Source: Lasiodiplodia sp. COLG20 (lineage: Eukaryota; Ascomycota; Dothideomycetes; Botryosphaeriales; Botryosphaeriaceae). From it: a stretch of DNA of 64,000 nt. Within the stretch, counting starts at the first letter, position 1, and the number at the start of each line of letters is the position of its first letter. Location: NCBI GenBank assembly GCA_009801085.1, contig VNWV01000004.1:1-64000 (forward strand). The letters are read 5' to 3'. This document shows, piece after piece, positions 9,251 through 30,333 of this stretch. The translations under genes and the position numbers were made by a program. The notes beneath the pieces are model-generated. The model worked only from the letters and a program-made list of their open reading frames with translations, was not told where the DNA came from and made no database searches.

Positions 9251-9583
9251 CTCAGTCTCTACGCAATGGTAAAGCCGTACTCACCTAGATACATGACTTG
9301 CAAGGCTCTGGGAAGACTGTTTCTTTGGACTGAATTGAAATTTGTATTCTCCATCTTCATCTCCATCTCCTACTCGTAGTCTTGGGAAGCAAAAGGGCAC
9401 GCCTCCGAATCACCTGCTCAAGAAGAAGTTCAAATTTCTCGTAGAAAGACATTTTCTCATTGCAGCTACTACAAAGCCCTGTCCTCACAGACAACATCGC
9501 CTTCTCTCCCGCCGCATTCCCTTTCTCAACGCTGAACAAACAATCTCCATCACCATGTCCTCATCTCCATCAGAACCCCAACT

Positions 9584-10306
9584 CTACTGCTCAGCAGGAG
9601 CGGCGTCGCGCTTCGCCTTAGCCGACGATGCCCAAACGTAAGCGGGAGCCTCCTCGGCCGGAGCAGCGTCACGCTTAGCCTTGGCCGAAGACGCCCAAAC
9701 ATACGCGGGGGCTTCTTCGGCGGGGGCAGCGTCGCGCTTAGCCTTGGCAGACGAAGCCCAGACGTAGGCGGGAGCCTCTTCAGCGGCATCCCTCTTCGCC
9801 TTGGCCGAGGACGCCCAAACGTACGCCGGCGCCTCTTCAGCGGCGTCGCGCTTGGCCTTTGCGGATGATGCCCAGACGTAGGCGGGGGCTTCCTCCGCGG
9901 CATCGCGCTTAGCCTTGGCGGACGAGGCCCAGACATAGGCGGGGGCTTCCTCCGCGGCATCACGCTTAGCCTTTGCGGTGGATGCCCAAACGTAGGCAGG
10001 AGCTTCCTCAGCGGCATCACGCTTGGCCTTTGCAGACGAAGCCCAAACGTAGGCAGGCGCCTCCTCAGCAACATCGCGCTTAGCCTTCGCGGATGAGGCC
10101 CAGACGTACGCCGGCGCCTCCTCAGCGGCGTCCCTCTTGGCCTTGGCAGAAGACGCCCAGACGTAAGCGGGCGCCTCTTCCGCAGGAGCGGGAGCGGCAT
10201 CGCGCTTGACGGCCTCGATGATGGGGTTGGCCTTGGGGTCGGCAATGGCGGCGGCCATGGCGGACGCCGTGAGGGCGGAGAGGGTGGCGGCGGTTGTGAA
10301 CTTCAT
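9584..10306 (-). CDS. Kex2-processed repeat peptide precursor (candidate RiPP/dikaritin precursor)
   Basis: Single coding exon, 240 aa. Residues 1-20 form a signal peptide ending in AMAAA. A short pro-region runs to the first Lys-Arg at 34-35. Ten repeats follow, each ending in AKAKR: the first is 23 residues, seven are 19 and two are 21; the protein then ends in DAAPAEQ. Every repeat carries EEAPAYVWASSAKAKR, with one Ser-to-Thr change and one Ala-to-Val change in the spacer of another copy. The signal peptide plus KR-bounded identical repeats is the layout of UstA/PhomA-type RiPP precursors and other Kex2-processed repeat proteins. Each unit supplies one Tyr, one Trp and one Pro as possible modification sites. 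Three UstYa-family genes and a prolyl-4-hydroxylase-like gene lie within 8 kb. A signalling or pheromone-like peptide is the main alternative; the conserved segment lacks the Trp-Cys...Gly-Gln...Cys pattern of ascomycete alpha-pheromones. Confidence 0.85.
   Translation of the reverse strand: MKFTTAATLSALTASAMAAAIADPKANPIIEAVKRDAAPAPAEEAPAYVWASSAKAKRDAAEEAPAYVWASSAKAKRDVAEEAPAYVWASSAKAKRDAAEEAPAYVWASTAKAKRDAAEEAPAYVWASSAKAKRDAAEEAPAYVWASSAKAKRDAAEEAPAYVWASSAKAKRDAAEEAPAYVWASSAKAKRDAAPAEEAPAYVWASSAKAKRDAAPAEEAPAYVWASSAKAKRDAAPAEQ
9608..10201 (-). repeat. Ten in-frame tandem repeats of about 57 bp inside the peptide precursor gene
   Basis: The units are 57 bp (seven copies), 63 bp (two) and 69 bp (one), with no gaps. 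At protein level they are almost invariant. At DNA level adjacent copies differ at many third positions: the two C-terminal units use different codons for several Ala, Tyr, Ser and Arg residues. The pattern is old duplication held by selection on the peptide rather than a recent slippage tract. Confidence 0.9.
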
Positions 10307-10333
10307 TGTTGTTTTTGGTTTTGAGTTGTTGGG

Positions 10334-10402
10334 CTAAGGGTGTGGGGTTAGCTTTGATGCTCGCTGTGTGCTTTCCTGGTTGGAGGAGCCGGGGGAGCTT
10401 AC
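10334..10402 (-). other. Probable 5'-UTR intron of the peptide precursor gene
   Basis: On the minus strand a GTAAGC donor (10402), a GCTAACC branch site (10353-10347) and a TTAG acceptor (10334) sit in correct order and spacing, 69 bp in all, between the likely promoter and the ATG at 10306. No coding is implied on either side, so this would be a leader intron. Confidence 0.55.
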
Positions 10403-10496
10403 TGTGAAGGGAAGAGTTGATGTTCGTCACTCTGAGAGGTGGAGAGGAGAGAGCTGGTGGAGTGATGCTGAAGTGGTGGTGGCGTGAGAAAGGAAT

Positions 10497-10503
10497 CTTT
10501 ATA
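10497..10503 (-). promoter_or_regulatory. Candidate TATA box of the peptide precursor gene
   Basis: TATAAAG on the minus strand, 191 bp upstream of the ATG. With the inferred 69-bp leader intron removed, the spliced leader would be about 90 nt, normal for a strongly expressed fungal secreted-protein gene. An A/T homopolymer lies just upstream. Confidence 0.45.
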
Positions 10504-12007
10504 CCATTTTTTTTTTTTTTTGCTTTACTTCGTGACAATTCCCGCAAGTCTCTTTCTCACGGCTCCTGCTGACTATTCCCGGCGCGCCTTCGGATACATC
10601 CGGCGTGTCTAGTGTCGTGCTTGGTTGGCATCACAACGCCATCCCCGGCGGCGATGGTCACGGACTGTCTAGACATGTCGACGACGATCAGTTGCTGCAC
10701 CTTCCTGATTGCGGCAATGCGAAAGGGATACCGGACTGAGGGCCTGCTGCGGTACGGTCCGATGTTTGCATCAGAACGCCCAATAATTGCGAGGACGATG
10801 TTGGTGGCTTGAAGTGAAGTGGCCGAGTCAACTGTCTCATGAGAATCACTTTCCTGATTTGGAAAGTATCGAGAATATGTTTAGTTATCGCCCGGTGTTT
10901 GGGAGAAGGGGTCCGTGATTCTCGTGCGCTGGCAGGAGAATCCTTCGTGGAGAGTAGGATTGGGGGTTAGCCTGCGCGGATGGGCGGTGCGGGTGCAAGT
11001 TGGGCCCGGATGGTGCACGTTCTGGCACGGGCAGCTGGAAGCTGATCCTTGCCTCCGCAAGGTAATAGCTCAGATAAGCTGTTAGGCGGAATGACGGTTG
11101 GATCAGTGAGAGCACTATACGGACAAGCTCCCGCGCGTCGTATGTGTGCTTTTTCGCGGAGATAGATCAGCGGTAGTTGGTTGTAGAAAAAACAGAACGC
11201 CACTAGAGGGCCTGATTGGTCGGGCGGATGAAACATGTGAGGTTTACTTTTTTGAGCGGTCTAGAAATGACACCGAGTCAACGGGCCGAGCACGCAAGTC
11301 GGGCGCCTCGAACGCGCGGTATATGCAAGTATGGGCCGGTTTGCAGGCTCACCGGTAATGGCGACTGATGGTTAGCATGTATGCAGCGCGCCGAACCGAG
11401 AATTGGGGGATTGCTGTCAAGGGATGACGGCGCCACGACAGCCACAGCTGTAAGGGGCGCTTGGACCCTGTCAGCGCTAGAGATAACGAACTAAAGCCGT
11501 GCTTGTTCACGATAAGAAACAACCAAGACTTTTTAGTGTCTAATGATTCATGACTAGTCGTAGTGCTGACACCGAAGGATGCCCATGGTCGACGGTTTGA
11601 ACTTGTAACCGTAACGGTGCGCGACCAGTCTCGCCGAGCGCGAATGCGGGAACGATTTATGAAGAATTTTATGCTGCACGTGAATTATGCTGGCTATAGA
11701 TGGCGTCAATGCGGGGTGTTCTTTCATGATCCGGAGCCATGTCCGGTGCTACCTCCTCGTAGTAATGGAGTCGTCGCATCCGATGCTCTCGGTGAGACGA
11801 GTGCTGAACCTCCAAACTCGCAGCTTTCAATAGACAGTCACATCAAAGAGGATTTGAAGATGTGAGAATTGAGCAGCGAAGTTCTGACTGTCAATTCTTC
11901 GTCGTATATTAGTGTTATCCTACAAAGTCACAACGCAGTACGAATAGAAAATTTGTAGAAGTAGTCATCATTCAATTGCAATCGTAAAAAACCTCAACGC
12001 TAATCAA
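10504..12007. other. 1.5-kb intergenic stretch, no supported gene
   Basis: It lies between the precursor promoter and the 3' end of the oxygenase gene. Several short ORFs are present, the longest about 100 codons at 11563-11865, with no recognisable domain, signal peptide or splice structure. I see no clear repeat or RNA gene. Confidence 0.45.
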
Positions 12008-12895
12008 TCACTGCTGCTCGGGAACCCATTTGTCCCTCCTCGTGAAGATATTCAACCCAACCTTCCTCCCCTTCTTCACCGGCATGCCCGCGTGCCACAC
12101 GCCCGGATGGCCCGTCCCATTCGGATACAAGTTCTCCCAAAACACAGCATTCCCCACCTTCGGCGCGAACGCCACACCGCCCACCCCGGAATCGTCCTCA
12201 CAATCGACCCACCCACACCACTTCGCGGGGAACCTCCCCTCATAATGCGGAAACTGCGTCGCACCACCTTCACACTCCCCGCTGCCCGTCTCCCCATCAT
12301 CGCAGGCGAGGTAGACGAAAAACGTCGAGACGCGCGGATTGGCCATGCCGGCGAACCAGTCGAAGTGCGGGCGGAAGTGGTCGCTGACGCCGTACTTGAC
12401 GACCTGGACGTCCTCGAGGCGGTCGCGCGGCGCGAAGCCCTGGAAGTCGACGGCGCGCTGCTCGACGCACGCCACGACCGGGTCGTCCGGCACGACCGCC
12501 GACATGCTGCTGCGGATCTCGCGGTCGTACGTCTCCAGCGCGTAGCCCTTCGACACCGGCGATTGGCGGTAGTAGGGTGTTGCGAGGTTGAGGAGGTAGG
12601 ATGTTTCGGCCGCGGTGAGGAAGTCGGCGACGTAGATGATGAGCGGGTCGCTGCTGAAGATGTGCGGGCTGATGGTGTGCGCGGGGCAGGCGGCGGCGTA
12701 TTGCGCGGCCATGGCGGTGAAGGTGGAGTTGGGGGAGGAGGGGGCAGAGAAGGAGGGTATGGTGAGGTCGATGTTGTGGAGGTTGAATTTGGAGCTGATG
12801 TTCTGCCATTGCAGGAAGCCGAAGGGGAGGAGCGGCAGCAGGATTGCTGCTGCTGTCGCCATTTTGGACGACTTGGGTTTGGTTGGAGAGGCCAT
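12008..12895 (-). CDS. Prolyl-4-hydroxylase-like 2OG-Fe(II) oxygenase
   Basis: Intronless, 295 aa. An N-terminal hydrophobic segment (about residues 12-28) suggests a signal anchor and an ER or Golgi lumenal catalytic domain. The P4H alpha-subunit fold is visible from residue 84 (PLIIYVADFLTAAETSYLL). Iron ligands are H177 and D179 (HFD) and H268 (GVWHAGMP); K278 is the likely 2-oxoglutarate-binding basic residue (GRKVGLNIFTR). The loop WCGWVDCEDD is typical of fungal secretory-pathway members. It lies between the repeat precursor and the first UstYa gene, transcribed like the precursor. Each precursor repeat has one invariant proline, so peptide hydroxylation is a reasonable but untested role. 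A housekeeping P4H-like enzyme that merely neighbours the cluster cannot be excluded. Confidence 0.85.
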   Translation of the reverse strand: MASPTKPKSSKMATAAAILLPLLPFGFLQWQNISSKFNLHNIDLTIPSFSAPSSPNSTFTAMAAQYAAACPAHTISPHIFSSDPLIIYVADFLTAAETSYLLNLATPYYRQSPVSKGYALETYDREIRSSMSAVVPDDPVVACVEQRAVDFQGFAPRDRLEDVQVVKYGVSDHFRPHFDWFAGMANPRVSTFFVYLACDDGETGSGECEGGATQFPHYEGRFPAKWCGWVDCEDDSGVGGVAFAPKVGNAVFWENLYPNGTGHPGVWHAGMPVKKGRKVGLNIFTRRDKWVPEQQ

Positions 12896-13443
12896 TGAGA
12901 CGACTAGTGTGGAGGAAGGAGTTGAATGGAGTTGAGGATGAAGTCAGAGTTGGGCGATGGTTGGAGGGGAGCTGAGTGTATATCCTCTGGATGCCCCGCG
13001 ATGTCTTGCACATGTAAGCATAATTTTTAGGGGCTTGCATGCACGAGTATGTGCATCACCCGCAGACGCAGGGACACTTGGGGATCGACAGTTGTGGGGG
13101 CTGAAGGATTCGGAGGCTTGGGGGCGGAGGGCCCGACCCGCGAATCCCTCCCCTACCTATTCCGGTAGTCCGGAGCTGTCCAATGGTTTTCCTTGCGGAG
13201 TAATAATAGCCAGCCACTGCTAGTCATGGTCGGCGCTAGTTTTGGATCCTGATCCTGCGAACCCAACGCTGGCTCCCTACCCCCGCTTTCCTCTTTCAGT
13301 AATAATCCGTGAAGTGGCAACGCACGTTAGGTCGGACGGTCCGACACCGTGCGCGGTCTCTATTTCCGGATGATGAATTGACTTCTTCTCGGCTCCCAAT
13401 TGACCTTTTCCTCCCACAATCATTCTCTGAAACCTCATCCACA

Positions 13444-14331
13444 ATGTACAAGTTCAAGCCGACACAAGGGCGCAACTCGTCCGAAGAGCAGCTCTCAAGT
13501 GCATCCACCAGCATGGAGGACGACAAGCAATTCCTGCTCGACGAGGCTCGTGGTTTCAAGATGCCAAAGAGAAGTCGCGGGTGGATGAATTGGAAGGCAG
13601 CAGCAGTGGCATTCAACGTGCTTCTCTTCGTCGGCGGCTTGTCTGTCTGGGGGCACGTTATCGTGCTTCTGAAGAGCCTTCGCTGCGATACCAAGCCCGA
13701 GGTGGACCATTTCGAGCCAGACTGTAAGAATACAATCCATCCAGTACCAGAAGTCGACTAACAGTCAACAGTGCTCTACAACAGCGCCGTCACCTTCCAG
13801 CCGCACGCATACATGGGCGGCGCACCCAGCAACGCAACAGACGAAATGTGGCAGCGGCTGTCACCGCCGGGCGACGGCATCGTCGAGGTGCCCAACGAGT
13901 TCACCCACAACCTGCCCGCCTCTCTCCCCGCGCCGAACAACCCGGAGACGCACAAGGTGTACGGCGTGTCCATGTTCCACCAGCTGCACTGCCTGAACTT
14001 CCTGCGGTTCGCCTACTACCCGGACGCGGTGACAGACATGACGGCCGAGGAAGTCGTTTTCCACCGCGACCACTGCCTCGACTACATCCGGCAGGCCATC
14101 ATGTGCGCGGGCGACGCCACCTTCGAGCCGCTGACCAAGGTCGGCATCAACGGCATGGGCGCGACGCATCAGTGCCGCGATTTCGAGCGGCTGTTCAGCT
14201 GGGCCTACGAGCACAGGTCGGACAAGGAGCACGGGTCGGGTTACAAGGGCGGCAAGGTCACCCACACGCCCGGCCACCGGAACGACTTTGACGAGGAGGG
14301 CGAGGAGGAGGGCGGCCACCACCACCACTGA
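13444..14331 (+). CDS. UstYa-family oxidase (DUF3328), copy 1
   Basis: Two exons (13444-13723, 13772-14331) across a 48-bp intron with GACTAAC branch give 279 aa. A cytosolic N-terminus of about 55 residues is followed by one transmembrane helix (around residues 58-80). Both family signature motifs are present: HQLHC (163-167) and HRDHC (191-195), the HxxHC pair thought to bind copper in UstYa-type oxidative cyclases. The tail is acidic and ends naturally in HHHH. In characterised dikaritin pathways such proteins cross-link the Tyr of the core peptide. The intron position (before LLYNSAVTF) differs from the one shared by the other two copies, so this is a separate lineage rather than a local duplicate. 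Confidence 0.9.
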
Positions 14332-14519
14332 TTGAGAGAGCTGTCATCGTTGTACCTTTAGCGAATAGAGAAGAATTGAATGTAACCCCATCGAGCAATT
14401 GACTTTCCTTGCCGGGCAACTGCCCCGACGGTGCATGACTCGAGCAGCAACCACATAAAGAAGCAACCACCCACCACCCATCCACCCCCACTCCCAAACA
14501 AAACCTCAACCCAGCAAAC

Positions 14520-15164
14520 ATGACAGACCCAACCTTCCACATCATCACCCCACGCCTCTACCTCACCCACCTCCTCCCCACCAACCCGGCCCACTGCGCC
14601 TTCATCGTCACCCTCTATAACACCCCCGAATTCATCGCCTCCATCGGCGGCAAGCCCACCTCCATCACCACCCCCGACGCGGCCCGCAAGATGATCGAGA
14701 ACCGCTTCGTCGCCGAGCACGCCCGCAACGGCTACGGGACCTACCTAGTGTCCCTCAAACCCACCACATCCACCACCACCACCACCACCACCGCGGACGG
14801 CGTACCCGGCGAAGACGACGACCTGGCCGCCAGCACACCCATCGGCACCGTCTCGCTCTCGCGCGGCACCCCGCCGGACGCGTACACCGCACCGGACCTG
14901 GGCTTTGCGATCCTGCCGGCGCACATGCGGAAGGGTTACGCGCGCGAGGCGGCGGCGGCGCTGCTGGCGTGGGCGGAGAGGGAGCGCGGGGTGGATGCCG
15001 TGCTGGGGCTGTTCGATCCGACGAACGAGGCGTCGAAGGGCGTGTTTCGGAGCTTGGGGTTCGAGGATCGCGGGACGAGAGTGCTGAGGGTGTTTGGGGG
15101 CGTCGAGGGCGCGGTGTGGACGAAGAAGGGGATGGAGGCGGATTTGGGGGTGTATGGGCTTTGA
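14520..15164 (+). CDS. GNAT-family N-acetyltransferase (RimJ/RimL type)
   Basis: Intronless, 214 aa, starting 188 bp after the UstYa copy 1 stop and on the same strand. The order is typical of the Acetyltransf_3/RimJ-like fold: TPRLYLTHLLP at the N-terminus, then PIGTVSLSR, PDLGFAILPAHMRKGYAREA (acetyl-CoA-binding strand and helix) and FDPTNEASKGVFRSLGF. A Thr-rich insertion encoded by a run of ACC codons (about residues 81-92) interrupts the early part. Such enzymes acylate an amine of a small molecule or peptide. Its place among UstYa genes makes acylation of the peptide (for example the lysine side chain or free N-terminus) plausible, but the substrate is not readable. Confidence 0.85.
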   Translation: MTDPTFHIITPRLYLTHLLPTNPAHCAFIVTLYNTPEFIASIGGKPTSITTPDAARKMIENRFVAEHARNGYGTYLVSLKPTTSTTTTTTTADGVPGEDDDLAASTPIGTVSLSRGTPPDAYTAPDLGFAILPAHMRKGYAREAAAALLAWAERERGVDAVLGLFDPTNEASKGVFRSLGFEDRGTRVLRVFGGVEGAVWTKKGMEADLGVYGL

Positions 15165-15244
15165 GGGGGGGATCATCACTTCGTAGCGGAGGGGTTGGGG
15201 GTTTGAACGGGAAATGTATATTTTGAATGCCTCTATATCTTCGA

Positions 15245-16099
15245 CTACTCATGCTGCCACGTCTCGTTGTACTTGGCCTCCTGCTCGATCTGGAAGGCGC
15301 GCAGCCGGTCGAAGTCGATGCAATCGTGCTCGACGCCCCAGCCCGTCACCGACGTCGCGTGGCCCTTGCCGACGTTGATGGGGCTGCTGCCCTCGATGAT
15401 CAGGTCGCCGCCGCACGAGATGCCCTGCCGCAGGTACTCGAAGCAGTGCTCCACGTGCACCTTCCACTTGAACGCGTCCGGGTCCGCCGACGTGTCGACC
15501 CGGTTCTTCTCCTGGTAGTACTGGAAGCGGATCATGTTCTGGGAGTCGGTTAGTATATCTTGCGCCATTGGGAAAGGGCGAGGTTCTTACCAGGCAGTGT
15601 AGCTGGTGAAGGATGGAAATGACGTAGAAGTCGGTGGGCTTGGGATTGGGCGTGTTCGGGTGGTCGTACGGCGCGACGATGCCATCCGGCAGGCCCCATT
15701 GTTTCGGGTTTTCGATCCATACAGCGTCGTGACCTACTCAATTTAGAAAAGGTACTTAATGCCAATGAGAGGATAATTACCTGCGACAAGCTTGTCCCAA
15801 TAATGGTTCACCTCAGGCCCATCGCCCATGTAGCGCGGGTCCTTGTCGAAGACCTTCTTTACCGGATCGAAGACTTCTCTCGGGATCGGCGTGTTGTGGT
15901 AGACGTGTAAGAGCGTGCTTTCGCTTTCTTCGTGTTCTGCTGGTTGCGTGCGGTAGTTGTGTAGTGCTGTTGCAGCCCAGCCCAGAGCAAGAACGAAAAT
16001 GCAGATGTAATGCCAGATGGTCGGGCGGGGAGTTCTGGGCTGTTCGTGGCCAGCTTCCTCGTCTGCAGCAATCTGCTGGTACTCTTTCTTGGAATTCAT
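15245..16099 (-). CDS. UstYa-family oxidase (DUF3328), copy 2
   Basis: Three exons (16099-15781, 15733-15591, 15538-15245) with introns of 47 and 52 bp give 251 aa. It has a short cytosolic N-terminus, a transmembrane helix (IWHYICIFVLALGWAATAL) and a lumenal domain with NTPIPREVFDPV, HQLHCL (149-154) and HVEHC (182-186). The second intron falls directly after HQLHCL, inside the first metal motif. The first intron (after WDKLVAG, phase 1) matches the only intron of copy 3. It converges with the GNAT gene (80 bp between stops) and diverges from copy 3 across a 715-bp shared promoter. Confidence 0.9.
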
Positions 16100-16814
16100 G
16101 TTGCCGTTCAGAATAATGGTGATGATCAAATTGATGAATTGACTTGCAATGAGCAAGAGGGGGGATCAAAGATACCTGAGAGCTCCTGCCCTTGAAGCAG
16201 CTTCTTGCGAGCGTGGGGGCGAACATGAGAGCATAATCCTTTGGATAGCGACAGGTTGCCTCATTCGTCACATGGAGCATCTCGGTGGTCCTACCGCTAC
16301 CTAATCAGCGCCACGTCAAGAATGGCGTGTCCGCGCTCGGAGCCGATCCGGCGGTCTGACCCTGTCTCGGGGCGGCGGCCAACGGCTCGGGGCCCGGGCT
16401 TTTTTGGTGATTATGCTTATCCTCCGCCCCCCGCGTCATGGATCGTCATCCCTGCCTCGCCTCCTCCGCTGGCTTGCATAAAACGCCTCACCGTAGTCGC
16501 TATCGCGTGCCCAGAGGGATCGCCATCTCTGGATCGCCCGCACCGTCGACAAACCGCTCTGAGCTTGTCAGCGCTTGGACGTGTTGGTTGTCTCATATAC
16601 CCAATGACCGACATTTCGGCCCCCGGGCGATAAGCCGGCCTTAATGGAGGATGCAGTGCTCTGTTGCAAGTCGAGTCGAGCCGGTCAGGGCTCGAAAGAT
16701 AGTGGAAATAAGGAAATATGGGAATAAGTTCTTTTTTCCATTCGGTGTCTGGCTTGTTCCCACTGGCATCGAACAGTTCTCAGAGCTGCGAATTCCCTTC
16801 AACTCCATCTCACA
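16100..16814. promoter_or_regulatory. Shared promoter between divergent UstYa copies 2 and 3
   Basis: 715 bp separate the two start codons. Small ORFs here have no coding character. The stretch around 16,330-16,410 is GC-rich and contains several CGG/CCG triplets in both orientations, the type of half-site bound by Zn2Cys6 regulators, but I cannot name a specific motif. No pathway-specific regulator gene is seen in the cluster. Confidence 0.4.
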
Positions 16815-17712
16815 ATGGAATTACCCAAGTTCTTCAGGCAAAAACAAGACTACGCCGGTATTGAGCAAGCAGACAGTCTGCTGCCAACCGACGAAAAGAC
16901 ACGAGAGGAAGATGGCGCACCCACAACAAGCCGCCGCAGATTACCCCACAATCTTTTCTTCTACACCTCCTTCGCCCTGTTCAACATCGTCGCTGGCCTC
17001 TTGATCGGCTACCTGTGCCGCGCCGCCAGCGAAGACTCAGCATCAAGTTTCGGCATCAACCCGAACAACCCCATCCCGCGCAAAATCCTCACCAATCGCC
17101 ATGACGTCCCCTTCAGCCCGAACCCGGACTACATGGGGCCCGGCCACCACGTCAACAAGAACTGGGCCAAGCTGACCGAAGGCAAGAAACTCCCTTCCCC
17201 TCACCACCGAAAACCCTCAATTCTAACCAATGGCACACACGACAGGCTCCGACTCCATCTACCTCCCCGACCCATCCCGCTACGGCCTCCAAGACCCAGG
17301 CATCCACGCACCCTTCTTCATCTTCTCCGAGCCACCGCCCGCCGCCGCCACCGACGCCGCCAACATCAACAACTTCTACGTCCTCAACAACCTGCACCAG
17401 CTGCACTGCGTCAACATGATCCGCATGCGCTACAACGCCCTCGTCTACCACCCGGACACGACCGATCCCTTGGCCAAAACCCCCATCGACGAGGACTGGA
17501 TAACACACTTGGAGCACTGCTTCGAGTACCTGCGGCTGAGTGTCACGTGTGCGGATTATTTGACGTTCGAGAGCGACTCGCCGCCCGGCAGCCCCGAGGA
17601 GTATTGGAAGGATGGGTTGAGTTGGGGGGTTGTGCATTCGTGTGTGGATTGGGATGCGTTGATGGGGTGGCAGAGGAGGCAGGTGGCGGCGTATAATGCG
17701 ACGTGGACCTGA
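16815..17712 (+). CDS. UstYa-family oxidase (DUF3328), copy 3
   Basis: Two exons, 16815-17181 and 17246-17712, give 277 aa. The junction needs a GC-AG intron (GCAAGA donor, TTCTAAC branch, ACAG acceptor, 64 bp); reading through would lose the frame at the point where family similarity continues. The protein has a transmembrane helix (around FFYTSFALFNIVAGLLIGYL), then NPNNPIPRKIL, HQLHC (173-177), HLEHC (210-214) and the usual ending WQRRQVAAYNATW. The intron lies at the same place and phase as the first intron of copy 2, pointing to a common ancestor. It ends 98 bp from the converging membrane protein gene. Confidence 0.9.
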
Positions 17713-17810
17713 GATGGCGTGGATGTTGTGTTTAGCTTGAGGATTGTGTAGAGACAAAATAGATTCAATTGGTTTGTAAAGTACGAAGTTATAATCATGA
17801 GACACTAACT

Positions 17811-19779
17811 TCAAAAACAGTACCGGTAATGAATGTTCTCAATGTCAGTCATCCCAGAGTCTATTGCAATACAGTTCAACCGCATTGACTCCGCTTCTGA
17901 TAGTCCGAGCTCCGCAATGACCTTACTCTTTTTCTTGTTCTGGTAGAAAAGCCATGCTCCATAGAATGCCGCAGCCAGTATCATGACGCCAGAACAGATG
18001 AATAGGGGTAGCACCGTTTTTTCTCCTGAATGTATCGTTACTTCGTCATAAAAGAGAAGGTCAAGCGTAAAACGCATACCCTGAAACATCGGGCCCAATC
18101 TGTATCCAGTGCAGATAATTGCAACGATTATCGCCCTCCTAAGAGATCCACTAATGTTCGCGGCGAACAAGCTCGCGATACCTAACAATCCATTAACTGA
18201 TTTCGGAGTAGCTTGTCTTCTCTCCATTTTTGACTTACATATGATGGGGAGATTACCCAACCCAGCCGCAATTGCTGGAACCCAGAAATCTCTGGTGAAG
18301 CATTCGAAGTACATTATTACATTGTGATCTTTCTCGAAACTCAGAAAGACCATGCTGAGAGATATACTGATGACTAGTAAAGTAACTATTCCTTGATTAG
18401 TTCTAGACGCTCGAGCCGTTGGGGAAAGTAGGCTTATAAGTACTCCGTAGTTGAGAAAATTTGTATAATACCAGACCGCATACCACATGTAGTGATATGA
18501 CCGCTAACTTTGAGTATATGGAAGGTAGAATACAAAATGCAGTCCTAAATTCCGGCTCAATAAAGCCATCAAAACTAGAGATCATCAAGAAAAAGTAGGC
18601 GTGCGGGTCCTTAAATGTGCCAAGCAACTGTATTGTGTCAGTTTCTTATTTAGAAAATAAAATCGGGATTAATCCGTGCGATACATACTTGAGATGCGTA
18701 TTTGTGATATGTTCTTGGACCAAATGATGTATCAGATGAGCTGTTTATACTTCTGAATGAAATAGCTTGGTAGTCCGTGGTGTCCAAAAGCACATTCACA
18801 CGAAGTGAGAAGGCCGCAAAATAAAGCCCTAGGATAGCCATGGCAATGTTGACTACCGGGGACCAATATATATTGTCGGAGCCGGTGGCTACGAACATGA
18901 GATCAATGGCGATATCTACAATTAGTCCCATAACTCCCCAAACAAGCAGAAAGACTGGTTGCGTCTGTTGGGGGTAACTAGAAGCTGTAAGTAGAAACGC
19001 AGCAGGAGTAAGTGCGGAGCTTGTTAGTCCGGAAACCGAGTACCCGGCAATTATAGCTATACTATACCAGTCTGATGGTCCTTCCAGACTGATTGTATCG
19101 CCATGCAAGTAGCTTCTAGAGGTCGCGTCCGGTTTGTTGAAAAAAGACATGATGAAAATAAGAGTACCTAGTCAGTTTTAGTTTACAATGGCGAAATGTA
19201 TAAGGTAGCCACGCACCTGTGATGAACAAGCTTGCTTGTGTGATTGATGCGACTTCAGCTTTGATCATAAGTGTGACAGCAAAGCAGCACCCCAGAGCGC
19301 CTGCAAAAGAGACTGTCATAGGGAGCACTGTTATCAAAGATGAGAAAATACACACGGCACAGCCTAGTTGAGATTGCATACAACAAGGTCCGTAGCCGAA
19401 CGAGATATCAAGGTAAAATGTAGGCGATACGGTTGCGATGTACACAAAGCCTTGAAGAATGTGATATAATAGACCGCTGTGCTATGATACGTCGTTAGTC
19501 CTGCGACTGCGCCCAGTTTCCCATATTACATACCAAGATCAGGACCTGGAGGCGTACTTTACTCCAGAGAGATATACGTCGGTAGCTCCGGCAGCTCTCT
19601 TCACCGATACTGGTCTGTGAAAAGTCTAGCGGACGCTCAGACATAGACCTTACACTGCGCGTGGATCTTGTAGCTCGCATCGAATGGATCTCAGGGTCTT
19701 CCGTTTGAGCTCCTGGAAGTTCTGTTCTTGCGGCGACATGTCCCTCGTTGGAACATTCGGTGTTTGTCCATGATTCCAT
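17811..19779 (-). CDS. Polytopic membrane protein; C-terminal half resembles an ACS/Dal5-type MFS carrier
   Basis: Six exons fit splice signals and phase throughout: 19779-19534, 19481-19217, 19167-18689, 18627-18444, 18385-18239 and 18181-17811, with introns of 47-61 bp. The product is 563 aa. After an Arg/Ser-rich cytosolic N-terminus, hydrophobic helices run to the end. The last 260 residues match the second half of allantoate-permease-type MFS proteins: LLGTFKDPHAYFFLMISSF (TM7), FAANISGSLRRAIIVAI...GYRLGP (TM10-11), LFYQNKKK after the last helix, and the terminal signature TDIENIHYRY, close to the usual TDxENPxFRY. The N-terminal half does not look like the matching MFS half. It could be a divergent carrier, a fusion, or a partly wrong model. 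As the nearest membrane protein to the UstYa genes it is the best candidate exporter. Confidence 0.55.
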
Positions 19780-25800: not shown

Positions 25801-26281
25801 GAGACCTCTGCGCATGAAGAATCACTCCTAGGTATTATTTTGGCGATTTCTGATTGTTGGCACATGAAAAATACTGACAACTAGTGCAGGAGTTGCTCGA
25901 CTCTCCCGTCAACGCACCGTAACGACAGCTCATGGAAGCTGCTCCTCCATCTCTGTTAGTAGAGAGGCTGTGATGCACAACCTTGTCTACACCGAATCCA
26001 CGATGCAGTCAGCTTATGTCGATAGTGTAAAACACAAGTGGGTGTGAGAGGCGACTCACTCTTCACGCCACCGAGTGGGATCAACAATGGACCTCGGACT
26101 ACAACCTCCGCCCGAAAGCTGTCCGTGGAGAGGCCAGTGTCCCACGAGCTTGTCTATAAAAGCCAGCAAGACGCCCATCAATCCGTTCGACATCCAGCAG
26201 CCGTTCACTCCAGCTCAGAAAGATCAAAGCAACCCCCAAAAGTTACCTCCAATCTTTATCCAGCCCCTCACTCCAGCCAAA
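22844..26281. other. 3.4-kb gene-free stretch
   Basis: ORFs up to about 145 codons occur on both strands (for example 25016-25450 and 23702-24070), but none has a domain, signal peptide or splice partners that I trust. I see no transposase, reverse transcriptase motif or clear terminal repeat. The right end holds the promoter of the next gene. Confidence 0.45.
26155..26162 (+). promoter_or_regulatory. TATA box of the small secreted protein gene
   Basis: TATAAAAG lies 120 bp upstream of the ATG at 26282, followed by a C/A-rich leader, the usual arrangement for a highly expressed fungal secreted-protein gene. Confidence 0.55.
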
Positions 26282-28199: not shown

Positions 28200-30333
28200 G
28201 CCAAGGTATGCCAACACTTCTTGTGCATTTCGCTCAGCTTTCATCACACGTCCAGAACGGGTGGTTCAAACAACCAACTCAGAAGCGTGCATCTTGGCTC
28301 AGGGAGGATCCTCATGGCTCGTGTTCTCTGAATCGCGGAGGTGGCTGGCCGTGGATGCCAAGCTGTGTTCAAGTGACAGTCTAGTAAGTTTACGAGGCGC
28401 TTGCAGGGCTTGGTGGGGAGAGCTAAGTTGTGAGTCTTCTCAACGTCTTCCAGAAAGGATATCAAACCTACTATACCTCACCATTGTTCATGTCTCATCG
28501 GATCGCGTCCATGTCTCACTGCTACCAGGGTGGCGGAACAGATGATGCATGAATGTATCTGTAAGGCTTTGGCTACTCCACATAGAAAATCTCCGTACCG
28601 ATCGAAGAGACAGCTGCTCGGGCGGAGTTGCAGGGGCTAACTGACTAGCCAGAAAAGGAAAGCCTGAGGAGGCTTGGCGTGTCGGAAGATGCCAAGTCCG
28701 CTCCTCGCGTGGGTGGCGTGGTCGGACCTACCCTTTGTATGCACCTCCGAGTCATTTCCAGTACTCCCTTGGGACATCGTCCGACGAAAAGTGGATATCA
28801 TCTCACCACGTGAGCGGGAGCCTTCAGGCTATCCATCGCATCCAACATCCTAGATGACGATTGATATCACAATCACAGCAGCTCGCTGTGAGGTAGGGTA
28901 GATGTATATACTATGGATTTCAGCGGAAAATTCTTCCGTACATTTGTGTTGTACAATACGTAGGTGCTGGTTGTAGAGTGAACAGAAGCCCCCAATTTCA
29001 AACCATATTTTGTGGCTGCGACAGTGGCGATGATCGGACCGAGGATTTGGCGAGGCTGTATATCGAACACGCTAAGGTCTTCTATACACTGATCGATTTG
29101 TCTCCTGATCCGAGTGTTTCATAGAACTTCTAGAAGGAACCTTATTGTTGCTGTGTTTCCACTGCTACAGACATCCTTGCTCGACAAACATATCTCGCTC
29201 ATCGTGAAGCAACTCTCTACGGTTCCCATGTCCTATTACCTACAGAACGATAAACTCGGTTTATTTCCGGTTCCCCTCCCTACGGCCTTACGGTGTGGCT
29301 GAACCTCTCGGGTGCTAGGCGAGGGTCATGACTCGTTTTGGAAACAATGGCGTGCGCTACCGACGGCTTTAGCTACTTCCGTCCTAGATTGGAATCGTAG
29401 CCGAGGCTTCTTTATGGTATGTTAGCTCAACACTTCTCGGTTTATCCTCTTCTCCGTCCTTAGTCCGCTCTGCATTTATCCATCGGTACATGACGATCTT
29501 CTGGGGTGCGGAGAAATTGTACTACGCCCCGGAGAGGGGATCCTACAAAGGAATAACGTAAAAGAACCGGCATAAGGAACACTCGAGACCACAGCCGGAA
29601 ATTTCAGCTCAGGCGCTCCGGTCTGGGCATTGTGCCGCTCGACGGGCGTCGAGGGCGTTTTTGGCCGTGATTCGTCGTTCCACCATCGCCAAGTGCTACA
29701 ACAAAACCGAGTCAAAATGAGCCCCCACACAGGGTTCACTGGGCTAGAATACGCCTTGCGGGCGGGTGACGGGCCGTAGTTGATGCGAAAATTGCCTCAT
29801 TTGTTAAAGCCTCAACTCAAAATGACATCATGACTCGTCCCGTATAGCTTCTCGCGACGGTCGGCCTTACTCCACTATTTCTCCCAGGGCTGTGGAAAGC
29901 ATGCAGGTGATCCGATTTTTCAGGGTTGTTTCACGTCTATCCGGCCCTATCCGGGTCGCTGCTGAGGCGACATCCTTATTATCCCGGTACGTCCCTTCTG
30001 TCGTATTTCACGGGATCGCAGACAAGGTTTGGGGTACGATTGAGGATCTCTTATTTGTTGTATGAAACAAAATCACGGAGCCTTGGTTCGCAAGCAAGAA
30101 GATAAGGACCATCGGCTCGAGCTTTACGGCAGGCAAAGATAATGCCAGCTGGCCGCGTTTTGCTCCCCACATCCATAGCTTCTCAGTCTCAGAATATGTA
30201 TGTGGTTCGACATGGTTTCGGACACCCCAAATATCGATGTTGAGTCTCCTCGCTCGGTGGTCGTCGGGCTACCAAGGTGGGCTAAGTATTGTCATCCTTG
30301 GGCGACGTTCGGAGCGGGAATTGGAGTATTGAG
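28200..30333. other. 2.1-kb intergenic stretch, no supported gene
   Basis: It starts in the pectate lyase promoter and ends at the 3' side of a small coiled-coil gene. Short ORFs only; no domain, RNA gene or mobile element is recognisable. Confidence 0.45.

Follow-up and report, generated by a model that had tools for sequence, protein, structure and literature searches.

A duplicated six-gene UstYa cluster with a ten-repeat Kex2-type precursor in Lasiodiplodia sp. COLG20

Overview of the cluster

The 64 kb stretch analysed here (the "window") opens contig C34 (VNWV01000004.1, 3.22 Mb) in the 43.5 Mb, 88-contig assembly of Lasiodiplodia sp. COLG20; bare positions refer to the window, and C57, C7, C1, C21 and C36 are other contigs of the same genome. 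It carries a real, selected and duplicated six-gene UstYa cluster for a ribosomally synthesized and post-translationally modified peptide (RiPP), of the Kex2-processed repeat protein (KEP)/dikaritin kind, which is itself a known kind. The gene content, the motifs, the duplicated unit and the selection on the repeat peptide are shown by the sequence, and the six genes probably constitute a pathway that makes a modified peptide from a precursor with ten copies of a repeat. The unit and its genes are as follows.

9366..17771, no strand: cluster unit; bounds from the collinear copy at C57:22706-30697 (blastn, MAFFT identity profile and edge alignments)
9584..10306, minus strand: repeat precursor, 240 amino acids (aa); open reading frame with a signal-like leader, a KR site and ten units; leader kept in C57
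12008..12895, minus strand: prolyl 4-hydroxylase (P4H)-like 2-oxoglutarate (2OG)-Fe(II) oxygenase, 295 aa; Pfam 2OG-FeII_Oxy_3; H177, D179, H268, K278
13444..14331, plus strand: UstYa1, 279 aa; exons 13444-13723 and 13772-14331; Pfam UstYa; one transmembrane (TM) segment; HQLHC163, HRDHC191
14520..15164, plus strand: GNAT acetyltransferase, 214 aa; Pfam Acetyltransf_3; no TM segment
15245..16099, minus strand: UstYa2, 251 aa; exons 15781-16099, 15591-15733 and 15245-15538; Pfam UstYa; one TM segment; HQLHC149, HVEHC182
16815..17712, plus strand: UstYa3, 277 aa; exons 16815-17181 and 17246-17712; Pfam UstYa; one TM segment; HQLHC173, HLEHC210

An initial annotation had read positions 9584-19779 as a dikaritin-like RiPP cluster with ten KR-bounded YVWAS[S/T]AKA repeats, three UstYa/DUF3328 genes, a P4H-like 2OG oxygenase and a GNAT enzyme. 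Each of these parts is borne out: all ten units lie between KR sites, the three UstYa genes score above the Pfam cut-off, and Pfam assigns the oxygenase and the acetyltransferase as listed. The RiPP reading itself is well supported by the Kex2-type repeat precursor, the HxxHC-bearing UstYa trio and their joint duplication. The claimed absence of a tyrosinase also holds (none of the 40 genome-wide PF00264 matches is on C34 or C57), and Pfam finds no methyltransferase, P450, flavin monooxygenase or tyrosinase among the six genes; NCBIfam gave nothing above cut-off for the four cluster proteins tried. The span, on the other hand, is corrected to about 9366-17771 by the limits of the second copy, and only in respect of its machinery is the cluster borne out as "dikaritin-like", the Tyr side-chain ring that defines such products being a prediction.

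A second copy of the cluster

When the whole window was compared by blastn with positions 1-40000 of C57 (all of that contig except its last 269 bases), one collinear region was found, with 78% DNA identity across a 6.7 kb main block and 71-72% in the precursor and the region upstream of it; the other matches are repeat units paired crosswise and, in one instance of 44 bases, UstYa genes. Edge alignments set 9366-17771 against C57:22706-30697, with 64% identity at the left edge (9366-9578) and 77% at the right. Gene order and orientation on C57 match those of the window for all six genes, every one of the six C57 frames is open, and the spliced gene models are open in both copies.

The encoded proteins are 89.5% (P4H-like), 89.6% (UstYa1), 82.0% (GNAT), 87.6% (UstYa2) and 88.1% (UstYa3) identical between the copies, and the precursors 72.5% over 91 aligned residues. 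The corresponding ratios of nonsynonymous to synonymous divergence (dN/dS) are 0.082, 0.139, 0.204, 0.157 and 0.079, and 0.212 for the precursor. The second copy thereby shows which genes belong together. A chance origin of the cluster is very unlikely, because it is duplicated as a whole and the repeats of its precursor are synonymously saturated (below).

The precursor and its repeats

The units of the window precursor follow the pattern D[A/V]A(PA)0-2EEAPAYVWAS[S/T]AKAKR, in repeats of 57 or 63 bp (n = 10), between a leader that ends in VKR and the tail DAAPAEQ. The leader, MKFTTAATLSALTASAMAAA, resembles a typical signal peptide by eye, with a hydropathy peak of 1.41. The spacer is D[A/V]AEEAPA in seven units, DAAPAEEAPA in two and DAAPAPAEEAPA in one, each then followed by YVWAS[S/T]AKAKR, and the residues ahead of Tyr thus number 8, 10 or 12, in steps of whole PA dipeptides. 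Yeast alpha-factor spacers, which are trimmed by dipeptidyl aminopeptidase, vary by whole dipeptides in like fashion. The constant A-E pair is a non-ideal site for dipeptidyl aminopeptidase, and on C57 as many as 13 residues precede Tyr in the first unit, so we only infer trimming of the precursor spacers. Every window unit has Pro at APAY.

The C57 precursor retains the leader, followed only by the units EEAPAYVSVSAGKDKR and EAAPAYVWASCGKVKR and a partial EAWVSCGRKQ. Tyr is present in the repeated core of all ten window units and of both full C57 units, and the partial C57 unit has Trp there; since both full C57 units keep Tyr and one of them loses Trp, Tyr is the better cross-link candidate. 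No relative of the whole precursor was found among 5.8 billion proteins at E<=0.001 (the best 7998 word-sharing candidates were scored), nor of its residues 1-80 at E<=1 (5288 candidates). These null results are weak evidence, because small repetitive genes are, we assume, often unannotated. AYVWAS and the other repeat strings searched occur in none of the main texts of open-licence papers that were covered.

The ten units are nearly identical as peptides and saturated as DNA: the proportion of synonymous differences (pS) is 0.756, against 0.014 for nonsynonymous ones (pN; 45 pairs, 17-residue units), and pS is still 0.50 in the closest pair. Codons for the same residue differ between repeats at a frequency of 0.563, where 0.544 +- 0.031 is expected from random draws on the codon usage of the five other cluster genes (1000 simulations, 277 of which reach the observed value). 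Active codon diversification beyond neutral is not supported, as the codons differ as random draws do and not more. Repeat-induced point mutation (RIP) was also considered as the source of the scrambling and set aside, the precursor having no RIP footprint (TpA/ApT 0.89, (CpA+TpG)/(ApC+GpT) 1.47). Ser is encoded 19 times in the array units, always by TCN and never by AGY, compared with 30 AGY among 76 Ser codons in the reference cluster genes (p about 7e-5, a post hoc comparison), so the array copies diverged via synonymous steps. Taken with the saturation, this means that the units most likely come from one ancestor. The repeats most likely reached synonymous saturation by drift with nearly no accepted amino acid change, and their near-identity as protein despite saturated codons places the peptide under strong selection. 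Synonymous divergence (dS) between the two clusters is 0.39-0.82; because the window repeats average more than the cluster pair, the array probably predates the duplication, with the C57 copy having lost units. Real repeat-peptide precursors can be recognised from sequence by a simple test, the synonymous saturation of identical repeats, and such an array poses the question of how tandem arrays escape homogenisation.

The two units and a part on C57, against ten in the window, do mean that unit loss occurs, and by extension the window cluster might be a decaying locus with no product. Every window frame is open, however, the repeat proteins are nearly identical despite their saturated codons, and the P4H-like protein is 96% identical to that of L. 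hormozganensis, which together make decay of the window cluster scarcely credible. It is also very unlikely that the precursor gives rise to an uncyclised peptide that is secreted as it stands, as a signal or in the manner of a pheromone, while the UstYa genes act on something else. Kex2 repeat precursors do include alpha pheromones, and 6120 of the 7878 KEPs in a fungal survey have no DUF3328 neighbour (PMC7329392); the pheromone-type KEPs described there, however, almost never adjoin DUF3328 (three exceptions), and the unit here contains Tyr, like 65.6% of DUF3328-linked repeats (PMC7329392). Furthermore, the precursor and the UstYa genes were duplicated as one block and then kept.

The tailoring enzymes

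Both HxxHC motifs are present in all three UstYa proteins of the window and of C57 (6 of 6), and each protein has one hydrophobic segment in both copies. In the DUF3328 hydroxylase CctR, HxxHC..HxxHC holds two copper ions in a binuclear site, and the C-terminus is assigned to the lumen (PMC12435403). A comparison of UstYa1 with solved structures by sequence gave no match at E<=1. We note that the UstYa3 intron (17182-17245) is of the GC-AG type and is apparently retained in the C57 copy.

In the HxD...H...K site of the P4H-like protein, H177, H268 and K278 are invariant among 19 sequences and D179 is present in at least 90% of them. Its AlphaFold model (mean pLDDT 70.3) has as the first of 419 matches 3gze, an algal P4H crystallised with (Ser-Pro)5 (E 1.6e-12; TM-score 0.77 by target and 0.58 by query). 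The hydropathy peak of the N-terminus is 1.55 in the window protein and 1.92 in that of C57. Relatives are widespread in fungi, including Neofusicoccum and Sordariales, and the Neofusicoccum parvum protein is 79% identical. In a tree of 31 proteins (28 of 39 matches, those of at least 215 aa, and three from this genome), the window protein pairs with that of L. hormozganensis with weak support (92/53), the C57 protein joins them at 100/100, Neofusicoccum lies outside, and the C7 protein is a fragment on a very long branch. The peptide DAAEEAPAYVWASSAKA is a candidate substrate, in which the hydroxylation site may be the Pro or a core residue.

Elsewhere in the genome, apart from the C57 copy, the matches of the GNAT protein amount to only 31% identity (98 residues) and 50% identity (40 residues). 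Among solved structures it comes closest to a ribosomal-protein-S5-alanine N-acetyltransferase (E 6.4e-4), so N-acetylation is mildly favoured.

UstYa and P4H-like loci elsewhere in the genome

There are 22 UstYa matches at 11 places in the genome, counted as 18 genes. Precursors were sought in the 64 kb window, in 40 kb of C57, in 15 kb at C7 and in about 10 kb at each of the other eight places. Repeat precursors are present at five of the 11, namely the window, C57 (identified by homology only, as it fails the repeat-finding rule) and the following three.

C1:4098248-4099684, minus strand: repeat precursor of eleven units that end in KYAWYNFKR; a UstYa gene lies about 3 kb away (the C1 place at 4.10 Mb)
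C21:27883-28806, minus strand: repeat precursor of ten KRQFMIDAYEELD units; a UstYa gene lies about 2 kb away
C36:89162-89686, minus strand: repeat precursor of P[Q/H]KVKVD[K/R]R units, with neither Tyr nor Trp, about 2 kb from a UstYa gene

A further match to the repeat rule, L037, was discounted, as its first 200 residues suggest a long, ordinary protein. The three precursors listed have pS of 0.777, 0.768 and 0.614 and pN of 0.009, 0.000 and 0.080; the C36 array is the least strict (0.614 and 0.080), and the C21 repeats combine identical protein with saturated codons. On C7 (294873-301323) lies a third cluster, with four UstYa genes and a diverged P4H-like gene; a small Cys-rich secreted-looking protein there (L028:8388-8609, minus strand) could be a non-repeat precursor.

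The genome has at least 6 PF13640 loci (7 candidates, 7 scored), 3 of which are within UstYa clusters (window, C57 and C7). With the window and C57 counted once, 2 of 5 are within about 5 kb of one of the UstYa places, for which the probability by chance is about 6e-5. These figures bear on whether the RiPP core is merely the precursor and the UstYa genes, with the P4H-like and GNAT genes as bystanders between them. In the asperipin-2a cluster a single UstYa is accompanied by a reductase and a transporter (PMC6514808), relatives of the P4H-like gene are common across fungi, and "prolyl 4-hydroxylase" was not found paired with "UstYa" in the open-licence papers searched. Against this, the duplicate includes both genes, which have been held by purifying selection (dN/dS 0.082 and 0.204), UstYa clusters hold half of the minimum count of PF13640 loci, and the sole close genomic copy of the GNAT is the C57 one; we consider bystander status unlikely.

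The proposed pathway

In the six-gene pathway that we favour, the precursor would enter the endoplasmic reticulum and Kex2 would cut at the KR sites in the Golgi, freeing ten near-identical 17-21-mers that would then be trimmed towards YVWASSAKA. UstYa1-3, as membrane-anchored, lumen-facing copper oxidases, would oxidise the core, the most likely product carrying a cross-link from the Tyr oxygen to a beta-carbon and being oxidised further at least once. An N-terminal anchor is probable for the P4H-like enzyme too, which would hydroxylate the Pro before the core (APAY) or a core residue, and the GNAT would acetylate the N-terminus or the Lys, for tailoring or self-protection. Kex2 cutting, trimming, all of the chemistry and the order of the steps are what we infer from the genes. 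The product is likely to be a Tyr-cross-linked YVWASSAKA peptide, further hydroxylated or acetylated.

Several points weigh against this pathway. On C57 the precursor is down to two full units plus a partial one, with Trp missing from one of the full units. The precursor has no relatives in the protein searches, although the P4H-like protein has its 96% match in L. hormozganensis. The hydropathy peaks of the leader (1.41) and of the P4H-like N-terminus in the window (1.55) are both modest, and the P4H-like model is weak at the active-site loop (pLDDT <50 at 176-182), leaving the predicted geometry of the site poorly defined.

A more specific form of the proposal has a lumenal P4H-type 2OG enzyme and three copper UstYa oxidases acting on one Kex2-released peptide, followed by acetylation, and an array that, like others in the genome, has been codon-scrambled to saturation and keeps ten identical peptides without shrinkage by recombination; we put this combination forward tentatively, at somewhat less than an even chance. 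Two diverged enzyme sets with different precursors in one genome form a natural comparison within a bounded, testable six-gene unit, and with the paired copies the action of UstYa enzymes and of a P4H-like partner on a peptide can be tested directly.

Flanking gene and candidate promoter motifs

The initial annotation had also counted a carrier-like gene as a cluster member.

17811..19779, minus strand: carrier-like multi-spanning membrane protein, beyond the duplicated unit

Blastn, the identity profile and the edge alignments agree that homology stops 59 bases beyond UstYa3, and this gene is therefore outside the unit. It is low in GC and has seven TM-like windows by an approximate reading; the three of its exon pieces that were scanned match no Pfam family, and it has one relative (37%) in the genome, on C78. 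It is probably not part of the pathway and should be dropped from the cluster.

A short word and a 15-base form of it recur within the unit.

11684..11691, plus strand: shared promoter word ATTATGCT, located upstream of the precursor (1.4 kb from its start), retained at C57 24597; candidate only
13010..13024, minus strand: candidate cis-motif ATTATGCTYNCAYGT, P4H/UstYa1 divergent promoter
16223..16237, minus strand: candidate cis-motif ATTATGCTYNCAYGT, UstYa2/UstYa3 divergent promoter

The core word recurs at 16410-16417 (plus strand) in the UstYa2/UstYa3 promoter, where it is not exactly kept in C57. ATTATGCT was spotted by eye before testing; its four window occurrences all lie within the unit (about 3e-4 by random placement), three of the four sites are kept in C57, and 5 of 100 shuffles also attain a count of four. 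The 15-base ATTATGCTYNCAYGT was drawn from the four cluster sites, which makes its genome count partly circular: five matches in 43.5 Mb, four of them in divergent promoters of the two clusters (in C57 at 25950-25964 and 29142-29156). With two mismatches it has three window matches, of which one (23888) falls outside the unit, and a count of three is reached in 9 of 100 shuffles. Given the shuffles, the 3/4 retention and the circular pattern, a conserved pathway motif is not upheld, and both words are kept as candidates only.

Comparison with known systems

A fungal survey reports DUF3328 neighbours for 1758 of 7878 KEPs (PMC7329392), and the present cluster resembles that kind in its signal-like leader, its Kex2-bounded repeats and its nearby UstYa genes. 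Ustiloxin and phomopsin share with it a KEP precursor, several UstYa genes (2 and 5, respectively) and a Tyr-first core (PMC7329392). Both of those clusters have a tyrosinase, to which that of ustiloxin adds a methyltransferase, a P450 and flavin monooxygenases (PMC12048977); by Pfam, the present six genes include none of them. In both, Tyr is linked to an Ile (PMC9233826), whereas the Y+2 residue here is Trp. The asperipin-2a cluster (aprA/aprY/aprR/aprT) is like this one in its repeat precursor, its UstYa oxidase and its absence of tyrosinase, and the Tyr residues of asperipin-2a form ether links to beta-carbons; it differs in having one UstYa rather than three, the core FYYTGY, and a reductase and a transporter in place of the P4H-like and GNAT enzymes (PMC6514808). 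In lichen RiPP Clan R2, UstY is flanked by GNAT genes with no tyrosinase, as here, but there is a single UstY, and "hydroxylase" was not found in the main text of that paper (PMC12048977).

Searches of the literature for Lasiodiplodia with UstYa, for a UstYa-tryptophan cross-link and for Kex2 repeats with synonymous change returned nothing on this cluster. A 2OG enzyme does appear beside DUF3328 work in PMC12435403, where the cited passages describe it as an assay control, and DUF3328 clusters are induced in infected banana leaf in PMC5006380, whose cited passages make no link to a 2OG gene. Tyrosinase-free UstYa clusters (PMC6514808) and the adjacency of UstY and GNAT genes in lichens (PMC12048977) are already on record. 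The P4H-like enzyme and a GNAT that lacks close copies make an unusual pair of tailoring enzymes, and the P4H-like gene is the least precedented part of the Lasiodiplodia cluster.

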